Assembly (NCBI RefSeq): GCF_007993735.1
Contig: NZ_CP042453.1
Coordinates: 186,001 to 250,000, forward strand
Source of the DNA: Arenimonas daejeonensis
GTDB lineage: Bacteria; Pseudomonadota; Gammaproteobacteria; Xanthomonadales; Xanthomonadaceae
Direction: 5' to 3'
Length of the DNA: 64,000 nucleotides
This document shows, piece by piece, positions 3,161 through 34,617 of the stretch. The position numbers and the translations under genes were made by a program. Each line of letters starts with the position of its first letter. The first letter of the stretch is position 1. The notes under the pieces were generated by a model, which was not told the DNA's origin, did not search any database, and worked only from the letters and a program-made list of their open reading frames with translations.

Positions 3161-4046
3161 ATGACCGACCCCGCCCCGTCCCACGCCCCCTCCCTGTACG
3201 AGCGTTACCTGCCCCACCGCCGCTGGGTCGAGATCGGCTACTGGGTCATCGCCGCGGCGGTGTCGGCCATCGGCAACACCCTCACGGTGACGATGGAGCT
3301 GACCCGGGCCGGGTACGAATTCCACCCCATGGAACCGGCGATCTGGGAGTGGAGCAGCAATCTGGTCATCCTGGCCCTGGTGCCGGCCGTGGCCTGGTTC
3401 ACCCGGCGCTTTCCTCTGCACCTGGACACCTGGCGCCGGCAACTGCCCTGGTACGCGCTGGCCAGCCTGGCCTATTGCCTGGTGCACGTGGTCGCCATGG
3501 TGGCGATCCGCAAGGCGATCTACCTGTGGGCCGGCGACAGCTACGACTTCGGCTCCTGGCCACGGCAGTTGCTCTACGAATACATCAAGGACATCCGCAC
3601 CTTCGCCGGGGCGGTGGTGGTGATCGAGGTCTACCGGTTCCTGCTGCGGCGCCTGCAGGGCGAGGCCCGCCTGCTCGACGCACCCGACGATGACACGCCG
3701 CCGGTGGAACCCGTCGAGCGACCGGAACGGTTCCCTGGTGCGCAAGCTGGGCCGGGAATTCTTGGTCGCCGCCAACGACATCGAGTCGCTGCAGGCTTCG
3801 GGCAACTACGTGAACCTGCGGGTGCGCGGCCGCGACTACCCGCTGCGCAGCACCATCGCGGCGCTCGAAGCGCGGCTGGACCCCGGCCGTTTCCAGCGGG
3901 TGCACCGCAGCCACATCGTCAACCTCGACCACGTGGCGATGATCGAACCGCTGGATACCGGCGACGCCCGCCTGCACCTGAAGGACGGCAGCACCCTGCC
4001 CTGCAGCCGCCGCTATCGCGCCACGCTGCGTGAACGCGTGGAGTGA
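3161..4046 (+). CDS. Membrane-anchored LytTR-family transcriptional regulator (frameshift near 3733)
   Basis: About 294 residues after correction. Residues 1-165 carry four membrane helices; residues about 195-294 are a LytTR DNA-binding domain (REFLVAANDIESLQASGNY, RFQRVHRSHIVNLDH, LPCSRRYRATL). No receiver domain is present, so the membrane part is presumably the sensor. The frame shift lies at TTCCCTGGTG; removing one C gives a continuous RFLVRKLGREFL, which fits the family. It is divergent from the acyltransferase and convergent with the cytochrome c gene, 6 bases from it. Confidence 0.78.
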
Positions 4047-4052
4047 CCGGGC

Positions 4053-4898
4053 TCAGCGGCGGTCGAGGTAGGCCTTGATCGCCGCGACTTCCTCGTCGGT
4101 GAAGGCCGGGAAGCGTTTCCGGCCCATCTCGGTCATCAGCCCACTGGTGCTTTCCGTGCCGGCCTTGGTGATGCCCGTGCGCATCAGCCGGTCGAATTCC
4201 TCGGGCGTGTAGGCCTTGGCCACCGCCAGGCCGGGCGTGCCTTCCTCCGGGTAGCCGGCCAGGTCCATGCCGTGGCATTCGGTGCAGGCCACCGTGACCA
4301 AGGTAGCGGCCGCGGTCGGCTTCCCTGCGGTCGGCGCGCACCGGCGGCGACTCGGTCGGGTCGGCATGCATGTCCTCCGGGGAATATTCGCCCGCGACGA
4401 TGCCGATACGGCCCAGCAGCCGGATTTCCGAGGGCGGGTGTTCGCTCGCCACCTCCGGCACTGCGCGCAGGTAGGCGATCAGGTCTGCCACGTCCTGGTC
4501 GCGCAGGCGCTGGAAGGCCTTGTTGGGCATCACCAGGGCCAGGCGGCCGTCGCGCTTCGCACCGGTGCGCAGCAGGCGCAGGAGGTGGGCGTCGGAATAA
4601 CGATGCCTGGCCTCGGTCAGGTTCGGCGCCACCAGCCGGAAGGCGTACGGGACTTCGGCGAACACGCCTCCCCGAGATCGTCGCGGTGGCAGCCCCGGCA
4701 GCCCAGTATCCGGGCCAGCCGCGCGCCTTCGTCGGCATTGCCGGGCGGCAGTCGGGTGGTCGCCAGCAGCGCGGTGGCCGGCACCTGCAGCGCGGCTTCC
4801 ACGGCAAGGAAGACGGCGCCATAGGCCATGCCAGCCAGTACCGCCAGCACGGACAGCGTGATCGCGACCCGGCGGATCCATTTCCAGTACTTCCCCAT
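4053..4898 (-). CDS. Dihaem cytochrome c (two compensable frameshifts)
   Basis: About 281 residues after correcting two indels. A start at 4898 gives MGKYWKW followed by an N-terminal membrane anchor. Two haem-binding motifs are visible, CRGCH (residue about 75) and CTECH (about 200), each followed by cytochrome-c features (RLRDQDVADLIAYL; FTDEEVAAIKAYLDRR at the end). The first break is a lost G in a G-run near 4671; the second is an extra T at CCTTGG near 4300 (minus strand), where CCTGG restores YLVTVACTECH. It is a membrane-tethered periplasmic electron carrier of the kind that serves dehydrogenases; no partner is adjacent. It is divergent from dinB. Confidence 0.78.
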
Positions 4899-4959
4899 GC
4901 CGGAAAGAACGTGCTGCCGGAGGTCGCTCGGCCAGTGCGCGCTGCGCGACAATGCCGCC

Positions 4960-6036
4960 ATGCTCATGCCCCGCAAGATCGTGCACGTGGACATGGATGC
5001 GTTCTACGCGTCGGTCGAACAGCGCGACGACCCGGCCTTGCGCGGCCGGCCGGTGGTGGTGGCCTGGCGCGGTGCGCGTTCGGTGGTGTGCGCGGCCAGC
5101 TACGAGGCGCGCAGGTTCGGCGTGCGTTCGGCGATGCCGGCGCTGCGGGCCGAGAAGCTGTGCCCCGAGGCGGTGTTCGTGCCACCGGATTTCGTGCGCT
5201 ACAAGGCGGTGTCGCGCCAGGTGCGTGAAATCTTCTCCCGCCACACCGACCTGATCGAGCCGCTGTCGCTGGACGAGGCCTACCTGGACGTCACCGTGAA
5301 CAAGCTGGGCCTGGCCAGCGCGACGGCGGTGGCCGAAGCCATCCGCGATGCAATCCGCGAAGAGACGAAGCTGACCGCCTCGGCCGGCATCGCCCCGAAC
5401 AAGTTCCTGGCCAAGATCGCCAGCGACTGGCGCAAGCCCGACGGCCAGTTCGTGATCAAGCCGGCGATGGTGCTCGACTTCCTGGCGCCGCTGCCGGTCG
5501 GCAAGCTGCCGGGCGTGGGCAAGGTGATGGAGGCGAAGCTGGCGCAGCTGGGCATCGGCTCCGTGGGCCAGCTGCGCACGCACGGCGGTGTCGAGCTGGA
5601 ACGGCGGTTTGGCCGCTGGGGCCGGCGCCTGCACGAACTCTCGCTCGGCATCGACGAACACGCCGTGGAAAGCGAGCGCCCTACCACCCAGGTCTCGGCC
5701 GAAGACACCTTCGCCACCGACGTACCGCTGGAAGCCACCACCGAAGCGATCACGCACCTGGCCGGGAAAGCCTGGGCCGCGGCGACGCGCGAAACCGACC
5801 GCAGCGGCCGGACCGTGGTGCTCAAGCTCAAGACCTCCGACTTCCGCATCCTCACCCGCAGCTTCACGCCGCAGCAGCCGCCGACTTCGCTGGAACAGGT
5901 GGTGGCGATCGCGCTGGAACTGCGTTCGCGGGTCGAACTGCCGGCGCGCACCCGCTACCGCCTGGTCGGCGTGGGCCTGGCCAACTTCCGTCGCCACGAA
6001 GAACTGCCGCCGCAGCCGGAACTGTTCGGCCCCTGA
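4960..6036 (+). CDS. dinB: DNA polymerase IV (Y-family, DinB)
   Basis: 358 residues, the usual Pol IV length. It starts MLMPRKIVHVDMDAFYASVE, carrying the first catalytic Asp pair (DMD), with the SLDEAYLDVT motif holding the second acidic set. The helix-hairpin-helix region LPGVGKVMEAKL and the little-finger domain follow. The C-terminus ELPPQPELFGP resembles a clamp-binding tail. It performs error-prone translesion synthesis. ATG codons at 4960 and 4966 are both possible starts. I see no LexA box in the 60 bases before it. A hairpin just downstream is oriented to terminate the opposite strand. Confidence 0.95.
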   Translation: MLMPRKIVHVDMDAFYASVEQRDDPALRGRPVVVAWRGARSVVCAASYEARRFGVRSAMPALRAEKLCPEAVFVPPDFVRYKAVSRQVREIFSRHTDLIEPLSLDEAYLDVTVNKLGLASATAVAEAIRDAIREETKLTASAGIAPNKFLAKIASDWRKPDGQFVIKPAMVLDFLAPLPVGKLPGVGKVMEAKLAQLGIGSVGQLRTHGGVELERRFGRWGRRLHELSLGIDEHAVESERPTTQVSAEDTFATDVPLEATTEAITHLAGKAWAAATRETDRSGRTVVLKLKTSDFRILTRSFTPQQPPTSLEQVVAIALELRSRVELPARTRYRLVGVGLANFRRHEELPPQPELFGP

Positions 6037-6053
6037 CCGGGACCGGCCGCCAG

Positions 6054-6080
6054 AAAAAACGGGCGGCCCGAAGGCCGCCC
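6054..6080 (-). terminator. Rho-independent terminator for the EF-hand gene
   Basis: An 8-bp GC stem (6061-6068 with 6073-6080) closes a four-base CGAA loop. On the minus strand it is followed by a run of six T, the classic terminator layout, 30 bases after the EF-hand stop codon. Confidence 0.85.
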
Positions 6081-6110
6081 GTGTGCTCCACGTGGGGGAC
6101 GTGTGCCGGT

Positions 6111-6413
6111 TTACTCCTCGGCTTCCTCCTCTTCCGGCGGGTCCTGGTAGGCGTTGAACTCATCGCGGCTCAGGCGCGAGTCCTGGTTGCTGTCGGCGAT
6201 GGCGAACTGCAGGGACAGCTCATGCTCGACCGGGATGTCGGTCTTGCTCACGTAGCCGTCGGCATCGGTGTCGAGCTGTTCGAAAGTGACCTCGGCGGGG
6301 GCCGATGGGATCATGGCCGGGTCGGTCGGGGGCGTTGTGGCGCTGGCGAACGCGGCACCGGACAGGGCCAGGGTCAACGAAGCGGCAAGCGCCGTCGAGT
6401 TGAACTTGTTCAT
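6111..6413 (-). CDS. Small secreted EF-hand calcium-binding protein
   Basis: 100 residues with a Sec signal peptide (MNKFNSTALAASLTLALSGA, cleavage near ASA). Two EF-hand loops are visible: DTDADGYVSKTD and DSNQDSRLSRDE, each with the Asp/Asn-rich 12-residue spacing and a terminal acidic residue. The tail is a run of glutamates (PPEEEEAEE). It is likely a periplasmic Ca2+-binding protein; the role is unknown. It has its own terminator, so it is probably a single-gene unit. Confidence 0.85.
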   Translation of the reverse strand: MNKFNSTALAASLTLALSGAAFASATTPPTDPAMIPSAPAEVTFEQLDTDADGYVSKTDIPVEHELSLQFAIADSNQDSRLSRDEFNAYQDPPEEEEAEE

Positions 6414-6579
6414 GTCGCACTCCTTTCGCTTGGGGGAATGAAGCCTCGGGCTTCGATGCCACCATGCAACAACGAAAACAACCCGCGCTGAGTAAAAAGT
6501 AATCGTTGCGTTAGCGCCGTTGAATGGTCAGAACATCCCCGCACCGCGGTCTGCAGCGTTCATGGTTTCCGGATGAAGG

Positions 6580-6602
6580 AAGGGCCGGCATGGCCGGCCC
6601 TT
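6580..6602 (-). terminator. Hairpin after the RcnB-like gene
   Basis: A perfect 10-bp GC-rich inverted repeat with a three-base loop (6580-6589 / 6593-6602) lies 28 bases beyond the stop of the RcnB-like gene. There is no clear T-run on the minus strand, so it may stabilise the 3' end rather than terminate. Confidence 0.5.
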
Positions 6603-6630
6603 CATATCTGCCGTGGTGACGCGACCGGGA

Positions 6631-7269
6631 TCAGTGGTACACGCCGTACAGCGCGTCGAGGATCAGGCCGGTCGCCAACGCGACCAGCACCACGTCGCGG
6701 TCCACGCGCACCCAGCCGTAACCGTAGGGCGGCGGCGGCAGGTGGTAGTGGCGGTAGTCCACGTAGTAGTGGCGCTGGTAGTACGGCGCCGGCAGGCGGT
6801 GGCCTACGCGCCAGTGGTACGGGCGGTAACCGTGCGGATGGACGTAACGCGCCGGCGCGCGATAGCGGTACTGCGGATACCAGTGGTAGCCGTTCCAGCG
6901 GCGGTCGTTGTGGCGCACGTAGTTGCCGTGGCCGCCGCGGTAGTCGCGGTAACGGTTGTCGTGGTGGCCGCGGTTGTCGTGACGGGCATACCTGTAGTCG
7001 TCGCGGCGGTCGTCACGGCGGTCGTAGCGGTGGTCGCGGTTGTCGGCGCGCCAGTCCCGGCGGTCGTTGCGGTAGTCGTGGCGTTCGCTGCGGTTTTCCT
7101 GGCGGTGGTCGCGGCCGTCGCCGCGATGACGGCCCTTGTCGCCCTGGCGCCCGCTGTCCTGCCAGGACGGCTCGCCACCGGCCCGGCGCTTGTCGACGTC
7201 GGCAGCCACCGGCAACGCGGTCGCGCCCGCCAGCAGCAAGCCCAGTGAAGCCATCATTATCTTGTTCAT
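6631..7269 (-). CDS. RcnB-family periplasmic protein with an Arg/Asp/His/Tyr-rich middle
   Basis: 212 residues from ATG 7269 (MNKIMMASLGLLLAGATALP, a Sec signal). The C-terminus YGYGWVRVDRDVVLVALATG is the RcnB signature; RcnB family proteins act in the periplasm and, in E. coli, affect nickel/cobalt homeostasis. Between residues about 45 and 150 the sequence is almost entirely R, D, H, Y, N and G in short repeats (DYRNDRRDWRADNRDHRYDR). Longer in-frame starts upstream lack a signal peptide. Metal binding by the His-rich part is plausible but unproven. Confidence 0.8.
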   Translation of the reverse strand: MNKIMMASLGLLLAGATALPVAADVDKRRAGGEPSWQDSGRQGDKGRHRGDGRDHRQENRSERHDYRNDRRDWRADNRDHRYDRRDDRRDDYRYARHDNRGHHDNRYRDYRGGHGNYVRHNDRRWNGYHWYPQYRYRAPARYVHPHGYRPYHWRVGHRLPAPYYQRHYYVDYRHYHLPPPPYGYGWVRVDRDVVLVALATGLILDALYGVYH

Positions 7270-7459
7270 CTTCCACCTCGGGGTCAGCCGTGGATCGGGC
7301 CTGCATCCACGGGGCGGACGTTGCACCCCGCGTCTGAATTCGGTTTGAATGTCTCCTCCTGTCCCGGGCACTGTTGCCCGCCAGTCAGGTTGACCGGCCT
7401 GCCCCCGGACCCGACCGCGGTTTAGAATCGGTCTCCGTCCCCACTATCACGCCGCCGCC

Positions 7460-7942
7460 ATGCCCTCCTTCGACGTCGTTTCGGAAGTCGATAAACACGA
7501 ACTCACCAATGCCGTGGACACCGCCAACCGCGAGCTCGGCAACCGCTTCGACTTCAAGGGCCAGGACGCGAGCTTCGAGCTCGACGGCTTCGTGGTCATG
7601 CAGAAGGCGCCCAGCGACTTCCAGCTCAAGCAGATGCTCGACATCCTGCGCGCGCGCCTGGTTGCCCGCGGCATCGACATCCGCTGCCTGGAGGCGGCCG
7701 AGCCCGAGGTGAACCTGGCCGGTGCGCGCCAGAAGGTCACCATCAAGCAGGGCATCGAGCAGAAACTGGCGAAGAAGATCGTCGCCACGCTCAAGGAGGC
7801 CAAGCTCAAGGTCGAGGCCCAGATCAACGGCGACAAGCTGCGGGTCAGCGGCAAGAAGCGCGACGACCTGCAGGAGGCGATGGCGTTGCTGCGCAAGGCC
7901 GAGCTTGAGATCCCGCTGCAGTTCGACAATTTCAGGGATTGA
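7460..7942 (+). CDS. YajQ-family nucleotide (cyclic di-GMP)-binding protein
   Basis: 160 residues, full family length, beginning MPSFDVVSEVDKHELTNAVD and ending EIPLQFDNFRD, both hallmark ends of YajQ. Members bind cyclic di-GMP, and in Xanthomonas one acts with a transcription factor in virulence control. It is cytoplasmic and single-domain (two RRM-like folds). Its stop overlaps the rsuA stop on the other strand by 11 bases. The window also encodes three GGDEF proteins and one HD-GYP protein. Confidence 0.93.
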   Translation: MPSFDVVSEVDKHELTNAVDTANRELGNRFDFKGQDASFELDGFVVMQKAPSDFQLKQMLDILRARLVARGIDIRCLEAAEPEVNLAGARQKVTIKQGIEQKLAKKIVATLKEAKLKVEAQINGDKLRVSGKKRDDLQEAMALLRKAELEIPLQFDNFRD

Positions 7943-8659
7943 TCTGGAGCGTCGGGGCTGAAGCCCCGAAGATCGCCGCGCGGTCGGTTTCGCCCAGTTC
8001 CGCCAGGCCCCGGGCGCCATGTCGCCCAGACCCAGCCCACCCAGCGAATGCCGGTGCAGTGTTTCGACGTGGTTGCCGACCGCCGCGAACATGCGCCGGA
8101 TCTGGTGATAACGGCCCTCGACCAATGTGATTCGCGCGCGCCTGGGCGCCAGTGCCTCGAACCCGGCCGGCGCCAGCGGCGTCTTCTCCGACTCCAGCAG
8201 CAGCGTGCCGCTTCCGAACACCTCGGCCTCGTCGCCGCGGAAATCCTGCGCCAGCGTCGCCTCGTAGACCTTGGGCAAGTGCGACTTCGGTGAAGTGATC
8301 CGGTGCAGCAACGCACCATCGTCGGTCATCAGCAGCAGGCCCGAAGTGTCGCGGTCGAGCCGGCCGACGGTGGACAGCACCGGATCACGCAGGCGGAAGC
8401 GCGGTGGCAGCAGGTCGTACACGACGCGGCCGGGATCCTTGGTCGAACAGGTGTAACCGGTCGGCTTGTGCAGCAGGATCAACAGCCCCGCCGGCGGATC
8501 CAGCGGCTCGCCGTCCACGCGCACGTCGGCATGCGCGATCGCGTCGTCGGCATACAGCACCTCGCCCTGCGGGTCGGTGATGCGGCCTTCGCGGAACATC
8601 AGGGCCACCTGTTTGCGGCTGCCGTAACCCAGGTTGGCGATCAGCTTCACCAGTTTCAT
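7932..8659 (-). CDS. rsuA: RsuA-type 16S rRNA pseudouridine synthase (frameshift near 7997)
   Basis: About 242 residues after correction. An N-terminal S4 RNA-binding domain (KLIANLGYGSRKQVALMFRE) is followed by the RsuA/RluB/E/F catalytic domain with GRLDRDTSGLLLMT (catalytic Asp) and the KVYEATL and GRYHQIRRM motifs. The frame is lost at TGGCGGAACTGG; one extra G gives WRELGETD and a normal stop at 7934-7932. It starts within the stop of the rsmC-like gene (ATGA overlap), so the two rRNA-modification genes are translationally coupled. Assignment as RsuA rather than RluE or RluF rests on overall similarity. Confidence 0.82.
7952..7969. repeat. Short palindrome containing GGGGCTGAAGCCCC (copy 1)
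   Basis: An 8-bp inverted repeat with a two-base GA centre lies in the last codons of rsuA, at its convergent junction with yajQ. The same 14-base core recurs at 26217-26230, again between convergent genes. This kind of GGGGCT/AGCCCC palindrome is common in intergenic DNA of Xanthomonadaceae. Confidence 0.55.
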
Positions 8660-9690
8660 GCCTTCACCGCCTCGATCACCTTGAAACCTTCGTGTTCCCG
8701 CACCGTGCGCATCGAGGAAAACCCGCGCGCCAACGCCTGTTCGTAGGCCAGGTGCCGGTTGGCCACCAGCCAGAAGCGGCCGCCCGGCCGCAGCGCGCGC
8801 GCCGCCGCGGCGATGAAGGCGCGCCCGAGTTCGGGATCGTCGGCGCGTCCCTGGTGGAAGGGCGGATTGGACACGACCACGTCATAGCCGCCGCCGGGCA
8901 GCCCGGCCGCGACGTCGTGCCAATGGAAGGACAGCGGCACCTGCGCGCCCGACAGGTTTTCACGCGCCAGCGCCAATGCACGCGCTTCCGCTTCGTACAG
9001 GTCCAGCGCCGTGATGCCGGGGCAGCGCGCCAGCAGTTCCGCCGCCAGGTAACCCCAGCCGGCGCCCAGGTCGGCGGCACGTCCGGCGAGATCGGCCGGA
9101 AAACATTCCGCCAGCAGCGCCGATGCCGCGTCGATGCGGTCCCAGGCGAACAGGCCCGGCCGGCTGCGGAAGCGACCGTCGGCGATCGGGCGCGGCGCAT
9201 CCAGCGCCAGCCACTCGTCCGCCAGTCCGCGGTCCACCGCATCGCCCAGCGGCGCGGTCCAGCAGACCCGGCAGTGACGCTTGGACAGGCTGTGCACCGG
9301 ACCCGCAAGCCGCACCAGGTCGTCCTCCATCGAGCGCGCGCCTTCCTTGTTGGCGGCGCAGGCCACCACCACGCCACCGGCCTCCGCCTGGGCCACGGCG
9401 CGCGCCAGCAGGGCGCGCGATTCGTCGCGCTGGCGCGGCGACAGCACCAGCACCCGCGCGAAACGCCCCGAATTCGATTCCGACACCGCCAGGCCATCGC
9501 GCTCCAGTGCCTCGGCCCAGGGTTTGAAGCTCTGCTCGCAGACCGGGCGCTGCCGGCGGGCGGCGTTCAGCGCCACGCCGGCGCGCGCGCGCAGGAACAG
9601 CGTCCCACCCGGCGCCGGCCACGAGAGGGCGCCGGCATCGAACGGCAGGAACAGCACCTCGAGGGCAGGATCGTCGGCGAACGTGGCCAA
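8656..9690 (-). CDS. rsmC: RsmC-like 16S rRNA guanine-N2 methyltransferase
   Basis: 344 residues from a TTG at 9690 preceded by GGAG; E. coli RsmC is 343. The N-terminal half is the degenerate RsmC-type domain, with conserved NKEGARS. The C-terminal half is the SAM-binding methyltransferase: DLGAGWGYLAAELL (motif I) and the catalytic VVSNPPFHQG. Longer starts upstream would run into the diguanylate cyclase frame and have no family support. It overlaps rsuA by four bases. RsmC modifies G1207 of 16S rRNA; RlmG or another close paralogue is the alternative. Confidence 0.82.
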   Translation of the reverse strand: MATFADDPALEVLFLPFDAGALSWPAPGGTLFLRARAGVALNAARRQRPVCEQSFKPWAEALERDGLAVSESNSGRFARVLVLSPRQRDESRALLARAVAQAEAGGVVVACAANKEGARSMEDDLVRLAGPVHSLSKRHCRVCWTAPLGDAVDRGLADEWLALDAPRPIADGRFRSRPGLFAWDRIDAASALLAECFPADLAGRAADLGAGWGYLAAELLARCPGITALDLYEAEARALALARENLSGAQVPLSFHWHDVAAGLPGGGYDVVVSNPPFHQGRADDPELGRAFIAAAARALRPGGRFWLVANRHLAYEQALARGFSSMRTVREHEGFKVIEAVKA

Positions 9691-11025: not shown

Positions 11026-11898
11026 ATGATCGAGATCCTGCTGCTGGCCGCCGCCGCGGCCACCGTCGACACCACCCCGATCGAATGTTCGAACTGCGCC
11101 GCCTGGAACGAGCCCCAGGCCCCGTTCCGGCTGCACGGCGACAGCTGGTACGTCGGCACCCGGGGCCTGAGCGCCGTGCTGGTCGCCACGCCCAAGGGCC
11201 TGGTGCTGATGGACGGCGGCCTGCCGCAGAGCGCGCCGTTGATCGCCGCGAACATCGAGTCGCTGGGCTTCAGGCTCGGCGACGTGCGTTTCCTGCTGAA
11301 CTCGCACCCGCACTGGGACCACGCCGGCGGCCTGGCCGCGCTGCAGCGCCTGACCGGCGCGCCGGTGGTGACCAGTGCGATCGGTGCCGAAGCCATGCGC
11401 CGCGGCAATTCGCCGCACGGCGACCCGCAGGCCGGGTTCGGCGAAAAGGCCAATGACTATCCGCCGATCGCCGAGGTCGAAACCATCGAGGACGGCGCCA
11501 CCGTGCAGGTCGGCGGCATCACCTTCACGATGCACGCCACGCCCGGCCACACGCCCGGCGGCACCACCTGGACCTGGCGCAGCTGCGACGGCGACGATTG
11601 CCGCGACCTGGTGTTCGCCGACAGCCTGACCGCGGTCTCGTCGCCGGACTATCGTTTCAGCGAACACCCGGGACAGGTTTCGCAGCTGCGCACCTCCATC
11701 GCCAGGGTTGCCGCCCTGCCTTGCGACCTGGTGGTGTCGGCACATCCTTCCGCGGTGGGCCTGTTCGAAAAACTCGCACGCCGCGAACAGGACCCGCAGG
11801 CGATGTTCGACCCGCGATCCTGCGTCGCCTACGCCGCCGGCGGCACGTCCTGGCTGGACAAGCGGCTGGCCGACGAAGCCGGCTCCGGCAAGCCCTGA
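11026..11898 (+). CDS. Subclass B3-type metallo-beta-lactamase fold protein
   Basis: 290 residues with a short, weak signal-like start (MIEILLLAAAAATVDTTP). Zinc ligands of the MBL fold are clear: NSHPHWDHAGG (His-x-His-x-Asp-His), the ATPGHTPGG histidine and the SAHPS histidine near residue 245. The length, the N-terminal CSNCAAWN and the spacing resemble subclass B3 enzymes, which hydrolyse beta-lactams including carbapenems in the periplasm. The position after the first His is Pro-His-Trp, whereas most B3 members have Ala-His-Phe, so substrate use is uncertain. Two Cys pairs may form disulphides. Confidence 0.78.
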   Translation: MIEILLLAAAAATVDTTPIECSNCAAWNEPQAPFRLHGDSWYVGTRGLSAVLVATPKGLVLMDGGLPQSAPLIAANIESLGFRLGDVRFLLNSHPHWDHAGGLAALQRLTGAPVVTSAIGAEAMRRGNSPHGDPQAGFGEKANDYPPIAEVETIEDGATVQVGGITFTMHATPGHTPGGTTWTWRSCDGDDCRDLVFADSLTAVSSPDYRFSEHPGQVSQLRTSIARVAALPCDLVVSAHPSAVGLFEKLARREQDPQAMFDPRSCVAYAAGGTSWLDKRLADEAGSGKP

Positions 11899-26232: not shown

Positions 26233-27855
26233 CTACGACCGTGCGGCGTCCGCCGCGGCCAGCTCCGCCGCCAGCTCGGGCGGGACACCGGGAATGCGGC
26301 TCCAGTCGATGGCGTCGATCTGCTCCGGCGGCAGGAAACGCCGTGCGTAATCCAGATAGACCCGCTCGCGCAGGAACACCTCGAACAGGTCCGGGTCCAC
26401 GTGGTGGTCGAGTTTCATGCGGCCCAGGATGGCCAGCGACTCGCTGAGCGTCTTGCCGGGTTTGTAGGGCCGGTCGCTGGCGGTGAGCGCCTCGAAGATG
26501 TCGGCGATGCCCATCACCCGCGCCGGCACGCTCATCTGCTCGCGGGTCAGGCCGCGCGGATAACCCTTGCCGTCCATACGTTCGTGGTGGCCGCCGGCGT
26601 ACTCGGGCACGCGCGCCAGGTGCGCCGGCCAGGGCAGCGCCTCCAGCAGCCGGATGGTCATGACGATGTGGTGGTTGATGATCTCGCGCTCGGCAGCGGT
26701 GAGCGTGCCGCGGCGGATGGTGAGGTTCTCGACCTCGTCGGCGGACAGGAAGGGCTGGTCGCTGCCGTCCGGGCCGCGCCAGGTGCGGGCGGCGATGCGG
26801 TGGATGGCGCTGACCTTGGCGTCGTCCATGAATTCGCCGCCGGTGTTGGCCTGGCGGATGACTTCGCGGTCGGCGTCGAGCTGGGCCAGGCGCTCGACGT
26901 AGGTGCGGTCGTCGAGTTCGCCGTGCAGGTGGGCGATCTGGGCATCGCGCTTCAGCACTTCGAACCGGGTGTCTATCAGCTCGATGCGGTCGAACAGCGT
27001 CTGCAGCTTGGTGGCCTTGTCCACCACGTGCACCGGCGTGGTGATCTTGCCGCAGTCGTGCAGCAGGCCGGCGATCTTGAGTTCGTAGCGGTCGGCTTCG
27101 TCCATCGTGAACGACGCCAGCGGGCCCACCGTGGTGCGCGCCGCCGCGTCGGCCAGCAGGCTGGTCAGCACCGGCACGCGTTCGCAGTGGCCGCCGGTAT
27201 AGGGCGACTTCTCGTCGATGGCGGTGTTGACCAGCTTGATCAGGGCCTCGAACAGGGTCTCGAGCTGGTCGATCAACTGGCGGTTGTTGAGCGCGATCGC
27301 CGCCTGCGAGGCCAGCGACTCCACCAGCCGCTGCTCGGACTCGGTGAAGGCATCCACCTCGCCGGCGGCGTTCTTGGAGTTGATCAGCTGCAGCACGCCG
27401 ATCACCCGGCCGTCGTGGTCCTTCATCGGCACGGTGAGGAAGGACTTCGACCGGTAACCGGTCCTGGCGTCGAAGGCACGCGTGCCGCTGAAGTCGTAAC
27501 CCTCGGCGGTGTAGGCGTCGGGGATGTTGACGGTCCGGCCGGTGAGCGCGGCGTGCGCGACGACCATGTTGTGGTTGGGCTGGCCGTCGGGCTGGTACAG
27601 CGGCAGTGGCTTGAAGGTGATCGGCGCACCGTGTTTCCCGCCCAGGATGAAGCCGAGGCTGTGATTGCGCAGCACCTCGAACACCAGCTCGTCGCCCTGC
27701 ACGCGGTAGAGCGTGCCGCCGTCGGCGTTGGCGAATTCGCGAGCGGTTTCCAGGATGCGTTCGAGCAGGGTCGCCAGGTCGCGTTCGTGCGACAGCGCCA
27801 CGCCGATGGCGTTGAGGGTTTCAAGACGTCGGAGGATGTCGTGTTCGCGGGTCAC
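26233..27855 (-). CDS. GAF-HD-GYP cyclic di-GMP phosphodiesterase
   Basis: 540 residues. A GAF sensor domain (about 5-170: ANADGGTLYRVQGDEL, FLTVPMKDHDGRVIGVLQLI) precedes an HD-GYP domain (about 200-500) with the metal-binding HDCGKITTP and the defining HHERMDGKGYPRGL. All the HD and GYP residues I expect are present, so it should hydrolyse cyclic di-GMP. An unusual insert of about 70 residues lies between the HD motif and the HHE/GYP part. There is no membrane helix. Its start is 126 bases from the divergent serine hydrolase. Confidence 0.93.
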   Translation of the reverse strand: MTREHDILRRLETLNAIGVALSHERDLATLLERILETAREFANADGGTLYRVQGDELVFEVLRNHSLGFILGGKHGAPITFKPLPLYQPDGQPNHNMVVAHAALTGRTVNIPDAYTAEGYDFSGTRAFDARTGYRSKSFLTVPMKDHDGRVIGVLQLINSKNAAGEVDAFTESEQRLVESLASQAAIALNNRQLIDQLETLFEALIKLVNTAIDEKSPYTGGHCERVPVLTSLLADAAARTTVGPLASFTMDEADRYELKIAGLLHDCGKITTPVHVVDKATKLQTLFDRIELIDTRFEVLKRDAQIAHLHGELDDRTYVERLAQLDADREVIRQANTGGEFMDDAKVSAIHRIAARTWRGPDGSDQPFLSADEVENLTIRRGTLTAAEREIINHHIVMTIRLLEALPWPAHLARVPEYAGGHHERMDGKGYPRGLTREQMSVPARVMGIADIFEALTASDRPYKPGKTLSESLAILGRMKLDHHVDPDLFEVFLRERVYLDYARRFLPPEQIDAIDWSRIPGVPPELAAELAAADAARS

Positions 27856-29381: not shown

Positions 29382-30629
29382 CCGCCGCCGCGATCGAGCT
29401 CGAAACCACCCTCGCCCATGCCCAGGGCGCCTACACCGTGGCGATGCGCTTCGGCAGCGGGCAGCATCCGGCGAACCCTGGTGCTGGACACCGGCAGCAG
29501 CAGCCTGGCGAGGCTGCAGGGTGCGTACGATCCGTCCGGTGACGAGACGCTGCAGGCCACGCCGTACGCGCAGGAAGTGATCTACGGCGGCGGCGCCTGG
29601 GCCGGTCCGGTATTGCGCTCGGCGCTGTGTTTTGGCCACGGCCACCACGAGCGGCGCATCGACGACGCGCTGTTCGCGCTGATCGAGTCCGAAGGCCGCC
29701 CCTTCCGCGGCGCCGACGGCATCCTTGGCCTGGCCTACCGCGACCTCAATCCGGCCTACGACCTGTCGACGCTGCTGCAGCAGCGGGGCGTCGAACCGCC
29801 GGTGAACTGGCCCTGGCCCTTTCCCGCCGGGCACGACCTGGACCTGGCGAAGTTCAAGGACTTCCTGCACAAGCATCCCCGCACGACGCTGACACCGGTG
29901 TTCAGCGCACTGGAGGAAGAAGGCGTGCTGCGCGACCGTTTCGCGCTGACCGTGGGCCGCGCCGTCGTGCACGTCACCGAAGACCGCGCTTCGCCGCATT
30001 CATTGGCTGCCGACCCGCTCAACCGCGGCGCACTGGTGCTGGGCGGCGGACCGGAACACCAGCACCTCTACCACGGCGCCTTCCACGATGTGCAGGTCCT
30101 GCACGACCTGTACTACAACGCGAACCTGCGCGCGGTGCGGGTCGGCGGCCAGGACCCGATCCCGGTGCCGCCACTGGACGCCGGCGACGTCGCCAGCCGT
30201 CACAGCAACGCCCTGCTCGATACCGGCAGCAGTTTCCTGGTGCTGGAGTCGTCCACGTACGCCGCCGTGCTCGCGGCGCTGGGCCGGCACGATGCGCGGC
30301 TGCCGGACCTGGTCGCGCAAAGCCAGGCCGCGCTGCGGGAAGACCGCGGCCTGCCCAACCACGCCGTCGACCCACGCCACTGGCCCGACCTGCACCTGCA
30401 CCTGGAAGCGCCGGACGGCCGCGACACCGTGCTGCGCATCGCCGCCTCGCACTACTGGCCGCACAACGCCTTGCACGCCGGCCAGACGATCTGCCTGCTG
30501 ATGGCGCAGCTGCCGCATTTCCCGAAGCAGTCGATCCTGGGGCTGCCGCTGTTCGCGGGCCGCTATACCGTTTTCGACCGGCAGGCGGGCGGTGGACCTG
30601 GCGTGGTGCGGCTGGCGACGGCGGCATGA
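29378..30629 (+). CDS. Bacterial pepsin-like aspartic protease (family A1; frameshift near 29486)
   Basis: About 416 residues after correction, from GTG 29378 inside the upstream stop. Both catalytic motifs of pepsin-family proteases are present: LVLDTGSSSL (residue about 40) and ALLDTGSSFLVL (about 285). Between them are a flap-like VIYGGGAWAG, the ADGILGLAYR strand, and near the end SILGLPLF with YTVFDR, matching the pepsin C-lobe. Removing one C from AACCCTGGTG joins QHPAN to LVLDTGSS. No signal peptide is seen, as in the cytoplasmic bacterial pepsins (shewasins). A1 proteases are rare in bacteria. Confidence 0.87.
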
Positions 30630-31162
30630 ACCAGGCGCTCGCGACCGCGCGCCTGCAGCTGCGTCCACTGGCGAGCGGCGACGAGGCGTTGTACGTACGC
30701 CTGTACACCGACCCCGTGAGCATGGCGCACATCACGATGGCGCAGACGCCCGACGCGGCGACGCGTGGCTTCCGGGCCGCGCTGGCGGCGCAGGCGCAGG
30801 TTCCGCCGCAGCGCCTGTTCTGGGTGTTGTACGACCACGTCCTGCAAGAGCAGGTCGGCCTGCTGGGCCTGGACCTGGACGAACCCGGCGGCGGCGAAGT
30901 CGGCGCCCTGATCCCACCCGAACACCAGGGCCGCGGCTACGCCACCGATGCGATCACCGCCCTGGCCGACCACGCCTTCGGCACACTCGGCCTGCGAAGG
31001 CTGCACACGCGCCACGCCGCCGGCCACGGCCTGGCGCACGGTCTGATGCAGGGCCTGGGCTTCCAGCCGGGCGATCCGGTGCCGGGCCCGCATCCGCAGC
31101 GCTGGTCACTGACCCCGGAAACCTGGGCCCGGCGACAAGGCAACTGCGATCCGCTAACCTGA
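30626..31162 (+). CDS. GNAT-family N-acetyltransferase (RimJ/RimL-like)
   Basis: 178 residues. The N-terminus ATARLQLRPLASGDEALYVR and the acetyl-CoA-binding segment ALIPPEHQGRGYATDAITAL (Q/R-x-x-G-x-G/A) identify a GNAT of the RimJ/L type, which acetylates protein N-termini or small amines. The start overlaps the pepsin homologue's stop (ATGA), and the borosin-type methyltransferase starts 32 bases after its end. A role in peptide modification is possible but only an inference from position. Confidence 0.85.
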   Translation: MNQALATARLQLRPLASGDEALYVRLYTDPVSMAHITMAQTPDAATRGFRAALAAQAQVPPQRLFWVLYDHVLQEQVGLLGLDLDEPGGGEVGALIPPEHQGRGYATDAITALADHAFGTLGLRRLHTRHAAGHGLAHGLMQGLGFQPGDPVPGPHPQRWSLTPETWARRQGNCDPLT

Positions 31163-31194: not shown

Positions 31195-31989
31195 ATGGAA
31201 AAACGGGGAAGCCTGGCCTGCGTCGGCCTCGGCATGACGCTGGGCGCGCACATCAGTCCGCGTTCGCGCAGCCACATCGAGCAGGCCGACGTGGTGTTCG
31301 CGGCCGTCTCCGATCCGCTGGTGGAACTGTGGCTGCAGCAGATGCACGCCGACGTGCGCAGCCTGCAGCCCTACTACGGCGAAGGAAAATCGCGCCAGGA
31401 CACCTACCGCGAGATGGTCGAGGCCATGCTGGCCGAGGTGCGCGCGGGAAAGACGGTCTGCGGCGCCTTCTACGGCCACCCGGGCGTGTTCGCGCTGGCG
31501 CCGCACCGGGCCATCGAGAAGGCGCGTGCGGAGGGATTCGAGGCCCGCATGGAGCCCGGCATCTCGGCCGAGGACTGTCTGTACGCCGACCTGGGCATCG
31601 ACCCGGGCACGGTCGGCTGCCAGCACTACGAAGCCAGCCAGCTGATGTTCTACCGGCGGCGCATCGACCCCTCGGCCTACCTGGTGCTGTGGCAGGCCGG
31701 CATCGCCGGCGACCGCAGCTTCCGCCGGTTCGCCACCCCGGCGGCCTACCGGCAGCTGCTGGTTGACCTGCTGGCCGCCGACTACCCGTTGGACCATCCG
31801 TGCACGATCTACGAGGCCGCGACCCTGCCGATCAATGCACCGCGCGTCGAGGCTGTCGCCCTGGGCGACCTGGCCCGGGCCGAGCTCAGGCTGCAGTCCA
31901 CCCTGGTGCTGCCGCCGGCCCGGCCCTTGGAGCAGAATCCTGCCATGCTGGCCCGGCTGGCCGAGCTTGACGCCCTCGCCGCATCCTGA
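31195..31989 (+). CDS. Borosin-type peptide backbone alpha-N-methyltransferase (stand-alone, split type)
   Basis: 264 residues, a single tetrapyrrole-methylase-fold domain (SLACVGLGMTLG near the start). It matches the borosin enzyme OphMA, not porphyrin methylases: YYGEGKSRQDTYREM, then CGAFYGHPGVFALAPHRAIE, EARMEPGISAEDCLYADLGI and YEASQLMFYR. Tyr61, Arg67, Tyr71 and Tyr93 sit at a constant offset of five from OphMA residues 66, 72, 76 and 98, reported as catalytic. Unlike fungal borosins there is no fused core peptide; the protein stops after the methylase domain. A likely separate substrate is encoded 36 bases downstream. It should use SAM to methylate peptide backbone amides. Confidence 0.9.
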   Translation: MEKRGSLACVGLGMTLGAHISPRSRSHIEQADVVFAAVSDPLVELWLQQMHADVRSLQPYYGEGKSRQDTYREMVEAMLAEVRAGKTVCGAFYGHPGVFALAPHRAIEKARAEGFEARMEPGISAEDCLYADLGIDPGTVGCQHYEASQLMFYRRRIDPSAYLVLWQAGIAGDRSFRRFATPAAYRQLLVDLLAADYPLDHPCTIYEAATLPINAPRVEAVALGDLARAELRLQSTLVLPPARPLEQNPAMLARLAELDALAAS

Positions 31990-32025
31990 GTTCCGATCCA
32001 CCACTACCGCAAAGGGGAGTAGAAG

Positions 32026-32313
32026 ATGACGAACGTGATCGCTTTTCTCGAAGCCATGGGCCAGGACGCCGGCAAGAGCCGACTCCAGGGCGAAGACTAC
32101 GCCGCTGCCGTGGATGCGCTGGGTCTGGACGACGCACCGCGCCAGGCGCTGCTGCAGCGTGACGCCTCGGCCATCGGCGACCTGCTGGGCGGGCGCATGA
32201 AGATGATGTGCCTGCTCTTCCCGGCCGACGGCGACGAAAAGAAGGACGACCAGCAGGACGCTCCCGGCGACGATGAGAAGAAGGAATCCATCCAGCCGTA
32301 CGGCCGCCACTGA
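32026..32313 (+). CDS. Putative borosin precursor peptide (SonA-like leader plus core)
   Basis: 95 residues with a strong GGGGAG ribosome site. Residues 1-56 are a compact helical leader (VIAFLEAMGQDA, DALGLDDAPRQALLQRD, IGDLLGG), like the borosin-binding domain of split precursors such as Shewanella SonA; such proteins are often misannotated as LigA-like. Residues 58-67 (MKMMCLLFPA) form the only hydrophobic stretch after the leader and are the likely methylated core, at about the same distance from the N-terminus as in SonA. A highly charged tail (residues 68-95) follows, ending QPYGRH. Its position directly after the methyltransferase supports the pairing. Chemistry is unproven. Confidence 0.82.
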   Translation: MTNVIAFLEAMGQDAGKSRLQGEDYAAAVDALGLDDAPRQALLQRDASAIGDLLGGRMKMMCLLFPADGDEKKDDQQDAPGDDEKKESIQPYGRH

Positions 32314-32333: not shown

Positions 32334-34086
32334 ATGCACAGGAGCCTGCTCCTGCTGTTGATGGCGATGGCCCTTTGCCTGGCGGCGCCGCGTTCCGCGG
32401 CGTCGCCGGCATTCGAAGCCATGCTGCGCCAGGCGGAGGACGTGCGCAGCGCCGACCCGGCACAGTTCGAGTCGCTGCTGGGACAACTCAACGCCAGCGT
32501 CGGGGCCGCCACGCCCTCGCAACGCCAGCAACTGCAGTATCTCAAGGCCTACCACCTGGCCTACACCGGCCGGTTCGACCTGGGCATCGCCGCCGCCAAG
32601 GCCCTGTTCGACGAAGCCACCGACGTCAACATCAAGTTCCGCGCCGGCTCGCTCATCGTCAACGGGTATGCGGCGACCCGCGAGTTCACCGAAGGGCTGC
32701 GCTACCTGGACCAGACGCTGGCACTTGTAGACCGCATCCAGGACGCCGAGCTCCGGCACCATGGCTGGTCGGCGGCAGGCGTCATCTACAACCAGGTCGG
32801 GCAGTTCGAGCTGGGCAGGGAGTTCGCGGAGCGCATGCTGGCGGACAACCCCAGCCCGCGCACCCGCTGCTTCGCCGGCGCCCTGCGCCTGGAGTCCCTG
32901 TACAACCTCGGGCCGCTGACCGGCGAGGACGCGGCGATCAGCGCCCTCATGCAGGCCTGCACCGAAGTCGACGAACCGGTTGCCGCGAATTTCGCACGCG
33001 CCCAGCTGGCCAGGCTATGGGCCGACCAGGGTGATCGCGCGCGGGCCATCCGCACGCTCAACGAACGCCTCGGCGAGATCGAGGCCACCCGCTACCCCCG
33101 CCTGATCGGCGAGATCCATTCGCTGCTGGCCGAACTCAACGCGGCGGAAGGTTTCGTGGAGGAGGCCGACCACCATGCGCGGCTGGCAATCGAACAGAGC
33201 CATGGCATCGTGCATTCGCTGCCGCTGGTCGCGGCCTATCGTGTGCTGTACCGGACCGCGCTGGACCGCGGCGACCCGGTGGCTGCCCTCGAGCACTACC
33301 GCAACTTCGCCGAGGCCGACAAGGCGTATCTGGACAACGTCAAGGCCCGCGAACTGGCATTCCAGCTGGTCAGGCACGAGACCCAGCAGAAGAGCCAGAC
33401 CATCGAACTGCTGAACAAGCAGAACGAGGTGCTGCAGCTCGAACGCAGGGTCGCGACCCAGAACGCGCGCAACACGCAACTGCTGATCGCCCTGTTGGCC
33501 GTGCTGCTGGCGTCGATCGGTTTCTGGGCCTACAAGACCAAGAAGACGCAGCTTTCGTTCCGTCGCCTGTCGGAAACCGACACCCTGACCGGCGTCAGCA
33601 ACCGGCACCACTTCAGCCGCTGCGCGGGGATCGCACTCGAATACTGCCAGCGCACGCGCGACCCTGCGCCCTGGTGATGTTCGACCTGGACGAGTTCAAG
33701 ACCATCAACGATCGCCACGGCCACGCCACGGGCGACTGGGTGCTCCAGCAGGTGGGATCCGCCTGCCGCAGCGTCTGCCGCAAGAACGACCTGTTCGGGC
33801 GGCTGGGCGGCGAGGAGTTCGCCTTCCTGCTGACCGGCGCGGACTCCGCGTCGGCCCTGCAGCTGGCACAGGATTGCCGCAGGCGCCTGGCGCAGATCGA
33901 CACCGCCGACACCGGCGCCAAGTTCCGCATCACCGCCAGTTTCGGCGTCGCCGCCACGGCCGACAGCGGCTACGACTTCCAGATGCTGCTCGCGCGTGCG
34001 CCGAGGCCATGTACCGGGCCAAACGCGAAGGCCGCGACCGCGTCAGCGTGCACGTGCCGGCTTCGCTGGACCCGCGGTTGGCCTGA
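32334..34086 (+). CDS. Periplasmic TPR-sensor diguanylate cyclase (two frameshifts near 33666 and 34001)
   Basis: About 584 residues after correction. A Sec signal (MHRSLLLLLMAMALCLAA) is followed by a periplasmic tetratricopeptide-like helical region (about 25-350), a coiled coil (LLNKQNEVLQLERRVATQNA), one membrane helix (LLIALLAVLLASIGFWAYK) and a cytoplasmic GGDEF domain: SETDTLTGVSNRHHF, MFDLDEFKTINDRHG, RLGGEEF. An inhibitory RxxD site (RKND) lies five residues before GGEEF. Lost bases (C near 33666, G near 34001) are restored to give CALVMFDLDEF and AAEAMYRAKREG. It begins 20 bases after the precursor gene, so it may share its transcript. Confidence 0.86.
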
Positions 34087-34092
34087 GACCCG

Positions 34093-34617
34093 ATGTCGCA
34101 CCTGATCCTGGAAACCGAACGGCTGCGCCTGCACGAACTGGCCGGCACCGACACCGGCTTCATCCTGGAATTGCTCAACGACCCCGATTTCCTGCGCTTC
34201 ATCGGCGACCGCCAGGTGCGCACGCACGAGGACGCGCTGCGCTATCTCGCTGAAGGACCCCTCGCCAGTTACGCCGCCAACGGCTACGGCCTGTGGCGGG
34301 TCGAACGGCGCAGCGACGGCAGGGTCATCGGCATGTGCGGGCTGGTCCGGCGCGAGACGCTGCCGCACCCGGACATCGGCTACGCCTACCTGCCGGCGTT
34401 CCGCGGCCAGGGTTACGCGGTCGAAGCGGGCGCCGCGGTGCTGCGCCACGGCTTCTCGCACCTGGGCCTGCCGCGCATCCTGGCCATCGTCACCGACGCG
34501 AATGCCGGCTCGGTGCGCGTGCTCGAAAAACTCGGCCTCATGCCGCAGGGCCGGCAGTCCTTCGGTGGCGAACCCCTGCTCGTCTACGGCTGCGACGCTC
34601 CCGGCGCCATCGCCTGA
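34093..34617 (+). CDS. GNAT-family N-acetyltransferase
   Basis: 174 residues beginning MSHLILETERLRLHELAGTD, the classic RimJ/L-type start. GYAYLPAFRGQGYAVEAGAA holds the acetyl-CoA pyrophosphate loop, and NAGSVRVLEKLGL is the conserved late helix. It starts 6 bases after the GGDEF gene, continuing the same-strand run that began at 27981. The substrate is unknown. Confidence 0.87.
   Translation: MSHLILETERLRLHELAGTDTGFILELLNDPDFLRFIGDRQVRTHEDALRYLAEGPLASYAANGYGLWRVERRSDGRVIGMCGLVRRETLPHPDIGYAYLPAFRGQGYAVEAGAAVLRHGFSHLGLPRILAIVTDANAGSVRVLEKLGLMPQGRQSFGGEPLLVYGCDAPGAIA

Follow-up and report, generated by a model that had tools for sequence, protein, structure and literature searches.

A split-borosin locus of Arenimonas daejeonensis with an adjoining TPR-GGDEF receptor gene: a possible peptide-sensing module

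Introduction

In the available passages of Miller et al. (2021; PMC8429565) type IV split borosins, to which SonM-SonA of Shewanella oneidensis belongs, are defined; the leader of the precursor SonA, its borosin-binding domain (BBD), is a five-helix bundle spanning residues 1-53, and SonA is methylated at L63 and I65. The present analysis concerns a related locus in Arenimonas daejeonensis (assembly GCF_007993735.1, contig NZ_CP042453.1); "the window" refers throughout to the whole stretch analysed, 64,000 nucleotides (nt) corresponding to positions 186,001 to 250,000 of the forward strand. The locus resembles SonM-SonA in possessing a separate methyltransferase and BBD precursor, in the same order and with the catalytic residues kept, and it is followed by a gene for a membrane-bound sensor with TPR and GGDEF domains. 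We propose, at a probability of about one half, that methyltransferase, precursor and TPR receptor constitute a three-gene borosin peptide-sensing module in which the modified core of the precursor is the ligand of the receptor.

Two further systems invite comparison. The fungal proteins OphMA, dbOphMA and MroMA have the same methyltransferase fold and catalytic residues, but their substrate is fused to the enzyme, unlike the separate precursor of the window. The RRNPP(A) systems of Firmicutes (Rap-Phr, NprR-NprX) are similar in that, in the sources available, a propeptide gene adjoins the gene of a TPR receptor, and a Rap-pheromone complex is the top Foldseek match of our sensor model; the likeness is one of fold, not of sequence homology. 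RRNPP(A) receptors are cytoplasmic and, according to the abstract of PMC12998947, had been taken to read unmodified peptides only. The window receptor, by contrast, is membrane-bound, with a TPR domain predicted to be periplasmic and a GGDEF (or, in relatives, kinase) output, which places it outside a definition based on cytoplasmic receptors, and its putative peptide comes with a backbone methyltransferase of its own.

The text of PMC8429565 contains no occurrence of "GGDEF," "cyclase," or "signal." The legend of the architecture figure of Xu et al. 2024 (Figure 1, PMC11395268) explains GGDEF as a domain of borosin architectures; because the link between borosins and GGDEF is thus already in print, part of what follows may be known, and the sensor-borosin association is not claimed here as unpublished. 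A 2024 review, in its available portion, reports borosin types IV-X. Literature searches for borosin papers with diguanylate, cyclic di-GMP (c-di-GMP) or Lysobacter returned none, and with GGDEF returned Xu et al. only. No account of the pairing of precursor and TPR sensor, of the kinase variant or of the ligand reading was found in the excerpts covered.

Materials and Methods

A single scan of genome contigs yielded 426 confirmed stretches encoding relatives of the methyltransferase. The best 80 of the 426, that is, those most similar to the window enzyme, make up the named loci; Arenimonas comes first among these close relatives, followed by Lysobacter, Pseudoxanthomonas, Rhodanobacter, Dyella, and others. 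Ten divergent methyltransferase loci were picked by hand, mainly for their long open frames, and loci outside the family of the window organism were hand-picked for spread, 20 from the 60 positive genomes of one family and 20 from the 70 positive genomes of an order-level sample. The A. daejeonensis genome is a single contig of 3.03 Mb with an estimated completeness of 86%.

For the correlation analysis, 62 of 81 loci (the 80 named loci plus the window) possess exactly one methyltransferase, one precursor and one sensor, and removal of a duplicate left 61. Distances were compared by rank partial Mantel tests with 499 permutations. Models were built with AlphaFold2 and compared with solved structures using Foldseek; the PDB was also searched by sequence using phmmer.

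Results and Discussion

The features of the locus, all on the plus strand, are as follows, with the basis of each in brackets.

31195..31989, plus: split-borosin peptide backbone alpha-N-methyltransferase of the SonM family, 264 amino acid residues (phmmer against PDB, PF00590, model)
32026..32313, plus: SonA-like borosin precursor, 95 residues (profile searches, family alignments)
32026..32193, plus: precursor leader, residues 1-56, predicted BBD of five helices (AlphaFold2; analogy with SonA)
32197..32226, plus: precursor core, residues 58-67, MKMMCLLFPA (comparison with SonA; conservation)
32218-32220 (F65) and 32212-32214 (L63) or 32215-32217 (L64), plus: predicted methylation codons (alignment with SonA)
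32227..32310, plus: acidic C-terminal tail of the precursor, residues 68-95 (translation; tails in aligned relatives)
32334..33677, plus: receptor gene, piece 1, with N-terminal hydrophobic segment, TPR domain, transmembrane segment and start of the GGDEF domain (conservation, AlphaFold2, hydropathy)
33674..34105, plus, other frame: receptor gene, piece 2, GGDEF domain with GGEEF motif (PF00990, E 1.8e-27)

Methyltransferase

The first-pass annotation of this DNA, made from the sequence alone, recognised a borosin methyltransferase by two motifs and by a constant offset from the fungal catalytic residues. The motifs GKSRQDTYREM and FYGHPGVF are indeed found at residues 64-74 and 92-99 of the 264-residue open reading frame, and Y61, R67, Y71 and Y93 each lie 5 below Y66, R72, Y76 and Y98 of OphA, as numbered in PDB titles. 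These four residues align with Y58, R67, Y71 and Y93 of SonM, and none of them varies in any of the 62 aligned rows. The best relative in the PDB is SonM itself (E 1.8e-80; 52% identity in the Foldseek alignment); next come MroMA, dbOphM and OphMA, the borosin enzymes of fungi (E 7e-53 to 7e-48). The enzyme part of the AlphaFold2 model matches SonM with a TMt of 0.95 and a root-mean-square deviation (rmsd) of 1.2 Å.

The annotation had itself raised the alternative of a cobalamin or sirohaem methylase, in which case the small open reading frame downstream would be unrelated to the enzyme. PF00590, to which the protein scores 77 bits, covers tetrapyrrole methylases and borosin enzymes alike, but the nearest cobalamin enzyme in the PDB, a precorrin enzyme, is matched at E 0.0015 as against 7e-48 to 1.8e-80 for the borosin enzymes. 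The NCBIfam scores are likewise far under their cut-offs, at 11-19 bits versus 163-400 for the precorrin and sirohaem models and 41.6 versus 525 for the best model, YabN. The closest solved relatives are borosin enzymes; the tetrapyrrole identity is refuted by the sequence and carries next to no weight, and on these comparisons 31195-31989 encodes a split-borosin N-methyltransferase.

A plasmid search for relatives gave eight records, every one below 60% identity. One of the ten divergent loci, L117 (G271; 3926-5278, minus strand), encodes a 450-residue protein (41% identity to the window enzyme) in which an N-terminal methyltransferase is continued by a long C-terminal extension; a sensor and a precursor were looked for at this locus and neither was found.

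Precursor

The second open reading frame begins 36 nt past the methyltransferase, in the same frame and on the plus strand, and the two proteins are separately encoded. Its description as a 95-residue protein with a helical leader, a single hydrophobic stretch (MKMMCLLFPA, residues 58-67) and a charged tail holds throughout. The tail, residues 68-95, is acidic, and a tethered read-through model of enzyme and precursor (AlphaFold2) predicts five helices within residues 1-53, at 1-13, 15-18, 22-30, 36-43, and 47-53. The block-mean predicted local distance difference test (pLDDT) score is 82-92 over residues 4-53, whereas core and tail are disordered. Both folds are recovered in the tethered model, but the core, at pLDDT <50, is not reliably placed, and the Foldseek alignment of the model over the fused OphMA chains gives an rmsd >6.

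On its own, the small protein matches nothing in Pfam or NCBIfam. When 23 precursors, from the window and its close named relatives and leaving out Shewanella-like rows, are combined in a profile, SonA is the top PDB match, though a weak one (E 0.0076); with SonA-like rows from other families included, the profile reaches E 4.9e-17 against SonA, a value that is partly circular. Used as a single query, the intermediate precursor of L142 matches SonA at E 1.3e-10. A precursor homologue is present at 79 of the 80 named methyltransferase loci, and the contig of the remaining one stops at the methyltransferase. The pairing of enzyme and putative substrate, originally argued from position and leader form, is thereby supported, as is the split layout of the SonM/SonA kind: separate frames, a small protein of the SonA family and an enzyme nearest to SonM. 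By profile and alignment, 32026-32313 is assigned as the gene of a SonA-like precursor.

From the homology with SonM-SonA we infer that the core is methylated. SonA I65 corresponds to window F65 by plain numbering and in profile alignments alike; SonA L63 corresponds to L63 by plain numbering and by the two-residue spacing, and to L64 in the profile alignments, which contain compensating gaps. The likely N-methylation sites, by this analogy, are F65 plus L63 or L64. P66, as a proline, lacks an amide proton, and the methylated stretch would stop there.

The core was at first thought to differ from that of SonA, and it does, having a Cys three residues before F65 and FPAD in the stretch that follows on from F65. 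It is, on the other hand, the usual core of its group, since it is conserved across 12 Arenimonas-group loci (M60 12/12, C62 11/12, L64 12/12, F65 10/12, P66 12/12, and A67 12/12). The 28-residue acidic tail has no equivalent in SonA (71 residues); in alignments the precursors of the relatives have acidic tails of variable length.

Several loci depart from the one-precursor, one-core pattern. The precursor of L056 (Tahibacter aquaticus; 11367-11786) ends in a tandem repeat with a DKDEEEIR-type unit and a short hydrophobic segment in each repeat, and from its sequence possibly holds several cores. Two to five precursors per locus occur at L009/L038, L107, L091, and L058, and some precursors have duplicated core-like stretches. 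A second type of precursor, whose leader opens with I-E/D/K-L-L-E and whose core is polar and rich in Gln/Pro where the usual one is hydrophobic and contains Cys, is found at L055, L067, L069, L085, L090, L092, L093, L095, L097, L101, L103, L105, and L109, with the same methyltransferase and receptor as the usual type.

TPR sensor

The original two-gene reading was right for methyltransferase and precursor and incomplete as to the locus, for the conserved unit comprises three genes, the third encoding the TPR sensor. In the window the receptor possesses, in order, a signal-like hydrophobic segment, an all-helical TPR domain (residues 25-329), a transmembrane segment (379-403) and a GGDEF domain with a GGEEF motif; the GG[D/E]EF active site is present in the window piece. 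The AlphaFold2 model of residues 1-415 (pLDDT 87.7, predicted TM-score 0.77) has an all-helical solenoid (residues 25-329) and, beyond it, a long helix that crosses the membrane. By crude hydropathy, 57 of 85 cluster members have the N-terminal hydrophobic segment and 79 of 85 the later transmembrane one, and GGEEF is present in 82 of 85.

The receptor of the relatives is mostly a single open reading frame of ~600 residues, while that of the window is frame-broken between the 33677/33674 open reading frames and changes frame again, to the third frame, near its end. Because six other GGDEF matches in the window genome are likewise split into two adjacent halves, assembly indels are a likelier cause than decay.

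The top PDB match of the TPR model is Rap in complex with the CSF pheromone (E 4.3e-5, TMt 0.64, 10% identity), and phi3T Rap, NprR-NprX and RapF-peptide entries are among the 50 Foldseek matches listed. The modeled fold fits, without proving, a peptide-binding TPR domain. Two residues, C179 and C209 (window numbering), are invariant in 62 of 62 sensor rows and lie on neighbouring helices of the model, where they would fit a periplasmic disulfide.

Conservation of the sensor and gene order

At the 80 named loci one further family is near-universal: a protein of ~600 residues encoded on the same strand, a median of 427 nt past the methyltransferase. Automatic gene calling located this sensor at 76 of the 80, and direct search added L065 and L073. 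As the contigs of L043 and L066 break off at the methyltransferase or shortly past the precursor, the sensor is present at 78 of 78 testable loci. Apart from the precursor, every other neighbour family occurs in less than half of the named loci. The precursor lies immediately upstream of 83 of 86 sensors (named loci plus window), the three exceptions being second sensors in three Pseudoxanthomonas loci; in the two-sensor loci L076, L091, L096, and L107 each sensor is preceded by a precursor of its own.

Presence and absence agree with this picture. The methyltransferase occurs in 104 and the sensor in 100 of the 297 family genomes: 98 have both, 6 the methyltransferase only, 2 the sensor only, and 191 neither (Fisher p 2e-68, uncorrected for phylogeny). 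Within the genus of the window the 17 genomes divide into 10 with both, 1 with the sensor only and 6 with neither. One of the six genomes scored as methyltransferase-only, G088, in fact carries sensor, GGDEF and methyltransferase in a single fusion, whose divergence put it beyond the reach of the search. A sensor follows the methyltransferase on the same strand, within 4 kb, at 82 of 108 methyltransferase places, and one lies upstream within 3.5 kb at another 18; eight of the latter 18 were fetched, and all eight are fusions. Among the ten divergent loci GGDEF is fused to the methyltransferase at nine, with the TPR part in the same frame in eight and in another frame in L113; the precursor is directly upstream in eight of these nine fusions, and none was detected at L112.

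One might hold that this is a plain split-borosin locus beside which the TPR-GGDEF gene has simply been inherited, functionally unconnected to it, given that the data are genomic only and many of the loci share descent. Against such a reading stand the retention of the sensor at every testable locus, where no other non-precursor family reaches half, its covariation with the methyltransferase both in the family and within the genus, the GGDEF-methyltransferase fusions, and the recurrence of the pairing in other families with a different output domain (below). We judge it very improbable. That the genes nearly always adjoin a gene for a membrane sensor suggests that the modified peptide is a signal sensed by the bacterium.

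Core-sensor correlation

Over the 61 loci the core varies with the sensor, and specifically with its TPR part. The correlation between core and TPR-domain distances is 0.52 given the methyltransferase, 0.45 given methyltransferase and leader, and 0.43 when GGDEF is added (p 0.002, the permutation floor). For core and GGDEF the value is 0.26 given the methyltransferase and falls to -0.13 given methyltransferase, leader and sensor; core and methyltransferase alone correlate at 0.17. With one divergent precursor type excluded (48 loci), core and sensor still correlate at 0.32 given methyltransferase and leader.

This result bears on two other explanations of the conserved sensor. In the first, the sensor regulates production of a borosin that acts elsewhere, as an antibiotic, metallophore or anti-predator defence; the TPR domain would sense some other cue and the GGDEF or kinase output would switch synthesis on. 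Biosynthetic clusters commonly have regulators of their own, as is generally known, and the tandem precursors and variable cores would suit such a product, as would L135, where a C39-type ABC exporter stands beside the methyltransferase and there is no sensor. Against it, variation in the core follows the TPR domain, not GGDEF or the methyltransferase; each sensor at L076, L091, L096, and L107 has its own precursor; and the core is conserved in the genus group, unlike a fast-diversifying weapon. We consider this explanation unlikely, although it deserves to be kept in mind.

In the second, the precursor is a small cytoplasmic partner that is not secreted: a BBD-like protein that binds the receptor or its output domain, with methylation as the switch. 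The fusions would then keep enzyme and output side by side at the cytoplasmic face. The absence of a signal peptide and of a constant exporter speaks for this, as do the fusions, which put the enzyme beside GGDEF, and the fact that the leader as well as the core correlates with the sensor. The correlation is nevertheless with the TPR part, which lies across the predicted membrane from GGDEF, and that of core with GGDEF vanishes once the sensor is taken into account; a cytoplasmic partner is, in our estimate, improbable.

Relatives in other families

In a class-level sample of 369 genomes there are 10 positives: the window genome, L141, which comes from the taxonomic order of the window organism and has the three genes too, and eight others, two of which have a sensor at the locus. 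Of 147 genomes from a different gammaproteobacterial family, 60 are positive, and all 20 loci fetched have a sensor homologue close by on the same strand (profile E 1e-109 to 1e-3); at these loci the precursor profile matches 10 (E up to 0.1), 7 have an unmatched small open reading frame at the corresponding position, and at 3 none was seen. The order-level sample has 70 positives in 295 genomes, with a sensor at 17 of 20 loci fetched. Overall, the sensor is present at 39 of 48 loci outside the family (8 + 20 + 20).

Loci L170-L177 belong to a genus that we take to be Shewanella, since the precursor of L175 is nearly identical to SonA. The sensor is present at seven of the eight. Six have a SonM-like enzyme, each with a TPR-type gene after the precursor (in pieces in L172); the enzymes of L176 and L177 are nearer to that of the window, and L176 has the sensor.

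The output domain is not fixed. Nine of nine long sensors tested (L142, L143, and seven more) carry HisKA, HATPase and receiver domains replacing GGDEF; as a histidine kinase thus takes the place of the cyclase domain, the TPR part is the constant element and the output varies.

In the low-GC genomes represented by L145, L146, and L148 a small open reading frame lies directly before a divergent methyltransferase, followed in L145 by a major facilitator superfamily gene (Pfam); this is apparently another split layout.

Proposed module

In the module proposed here the methyltransferase would bind the five-helix leader and N-methylate the backbone of the core, most likely at F65 and at L63 or L64. 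The core would be released, possibly at or near an LGG-R junction, pass into the periplasm and there act as ligand of the membrane receptor encoded beside it, binding the periplasmic TPR domain; the GGDEF domain on the cytoplasmic side would make c-di-GMP. In some relatives the same TPR sensor would drive a histidine kinase phosphorelay. The sequences show what the enzyme and precursor are, that the three genes are linked and co-occur, that the output domain is exchanged and that core and sensor correlate; methylation, core cleavage, export, recognition by the TPR domain and whether the output rises or falls are inferred. In its general form, that gammaproteobacterial split borosins, SonM-SonA included, are ligands of dedicated periplasmic TPR receptors with exchangeable outputs (GGDEF, hybrid histidine kinase) and make up a Gram-negative, membrane-receptor counterpart of the RRNPP pheromone systems with backbone-N-methylated peptides as its signals, the proposal is tentative.

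Several observations weigh against the peptide-ligand proposal. Thirteen sensors lie apart from any methyltransferase: a precursor accompanies three (L123, L124, and L139, the last two near contig ends), one (L133) is cut by the contig start, and at nine, uncut by contig ends, none was detected. Judging by these nine, a sensor can exist without a peptide, which speaks against a strict pairing. Nine of the 48 loci outside the family lack the sensor, and L177 has two precursors and no sensor. In the distance analysis core and GGDEF still correlate at 0.19 given methyltransferase and leader, and leader and sensor at 0.43 given methyltransferase and core; since the leader tracks the sensor too, it is the precursor gene as a whole that goes with the sensor gene, and the two may simply move as a pair. 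The Mantel tests, like the Fisher tests, are uncorrected for phylogeny, and the former are liberal under shared descent. The Rap matches of the model have TM scores of ~0.5-0.6 at 10-13% identity, LGN and APC/C TPR subunits are matched as well, and TPR solenoids resemble one another generically. A signal peptide is not evident in the precursor on reading its sequence, and the loci have no exporter or protease in common. C39 exporters are, if anything, rarer with the methyltransferase (64 of 104 genomes) than without it (143 of 193; Fisher p 0.03).

The literature passages available deal with bacterial split borosins as enzymes and tools and assign them no biological role. A receptor beside nearly every copy examined in these families suggests a concrete one: an N-methylated ribosomal peptide, sensed by a TPR domain, with a c-di-GMP or kinase output. 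If the peptide-ligand proposal is true, this would be a new class of peptide signal in Gram-negative bacteria, N-methylation would have its reason in protease resistance in the periplasm, and the 426 confirmed stretches would supply many matched ligand-receptor pairs. Should the genomic part alone hold, it defines the gene set for studies of SonM-like enzymes.

Neighbouring genes, proteolysis and export

Two genes upstream of the methyltransferase are optional neighbours with homologues at other loci, the GNAT gene frequently so.

29418..30629, plus: pepsin-like aspartic protease (PF00026, 3e-11)
30626..31162, plus: GNAT acetyltransferase, 32 nt upstream of the methyltransferase (PF13302, 5.9e-19)

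A GNAT homologue adjoins the methyltransferase at no fewer than 25 of the 80 named loci (at least 25), mostly upstream and in four cases after it, and an extra tailoring step by this enzyme is possible. Pepsin-like aspartic proteases are, to our knowledge, uncommon in bacteria. One is encoded within 1.5 kb upstream at 14 of the 80 named loci; at that frequency it was rejected as a general maturation enzyme and is at most a candidate maturation protease.

C39 was also rejected as a general export route, being not enriched and absent from 5 of 10 methyltransferase-positive genomes of the window genus. A GG or GA junction precedes the core in 32 of 62 rows. At L135 (G022; 4891-9479) the methyltransferase is followed by a C39-type peptidase/ABC exporter and a 432-residue protein, HlyD-like by eye, with no sensor. 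Elsewhere in the A. daejeonensis genome a C39 gene is paired with an HlyD-like one, the HlyD likeness again being judged by eye.

Further upstream, the protein encoded at 26233-27855 (minus strand), which from its motif we take to resemble a GAF/HD-GYP c-di-GMP phosphodiesterase, has homologues within 7 kb of a borosin methyltransferase in nine other named loci.

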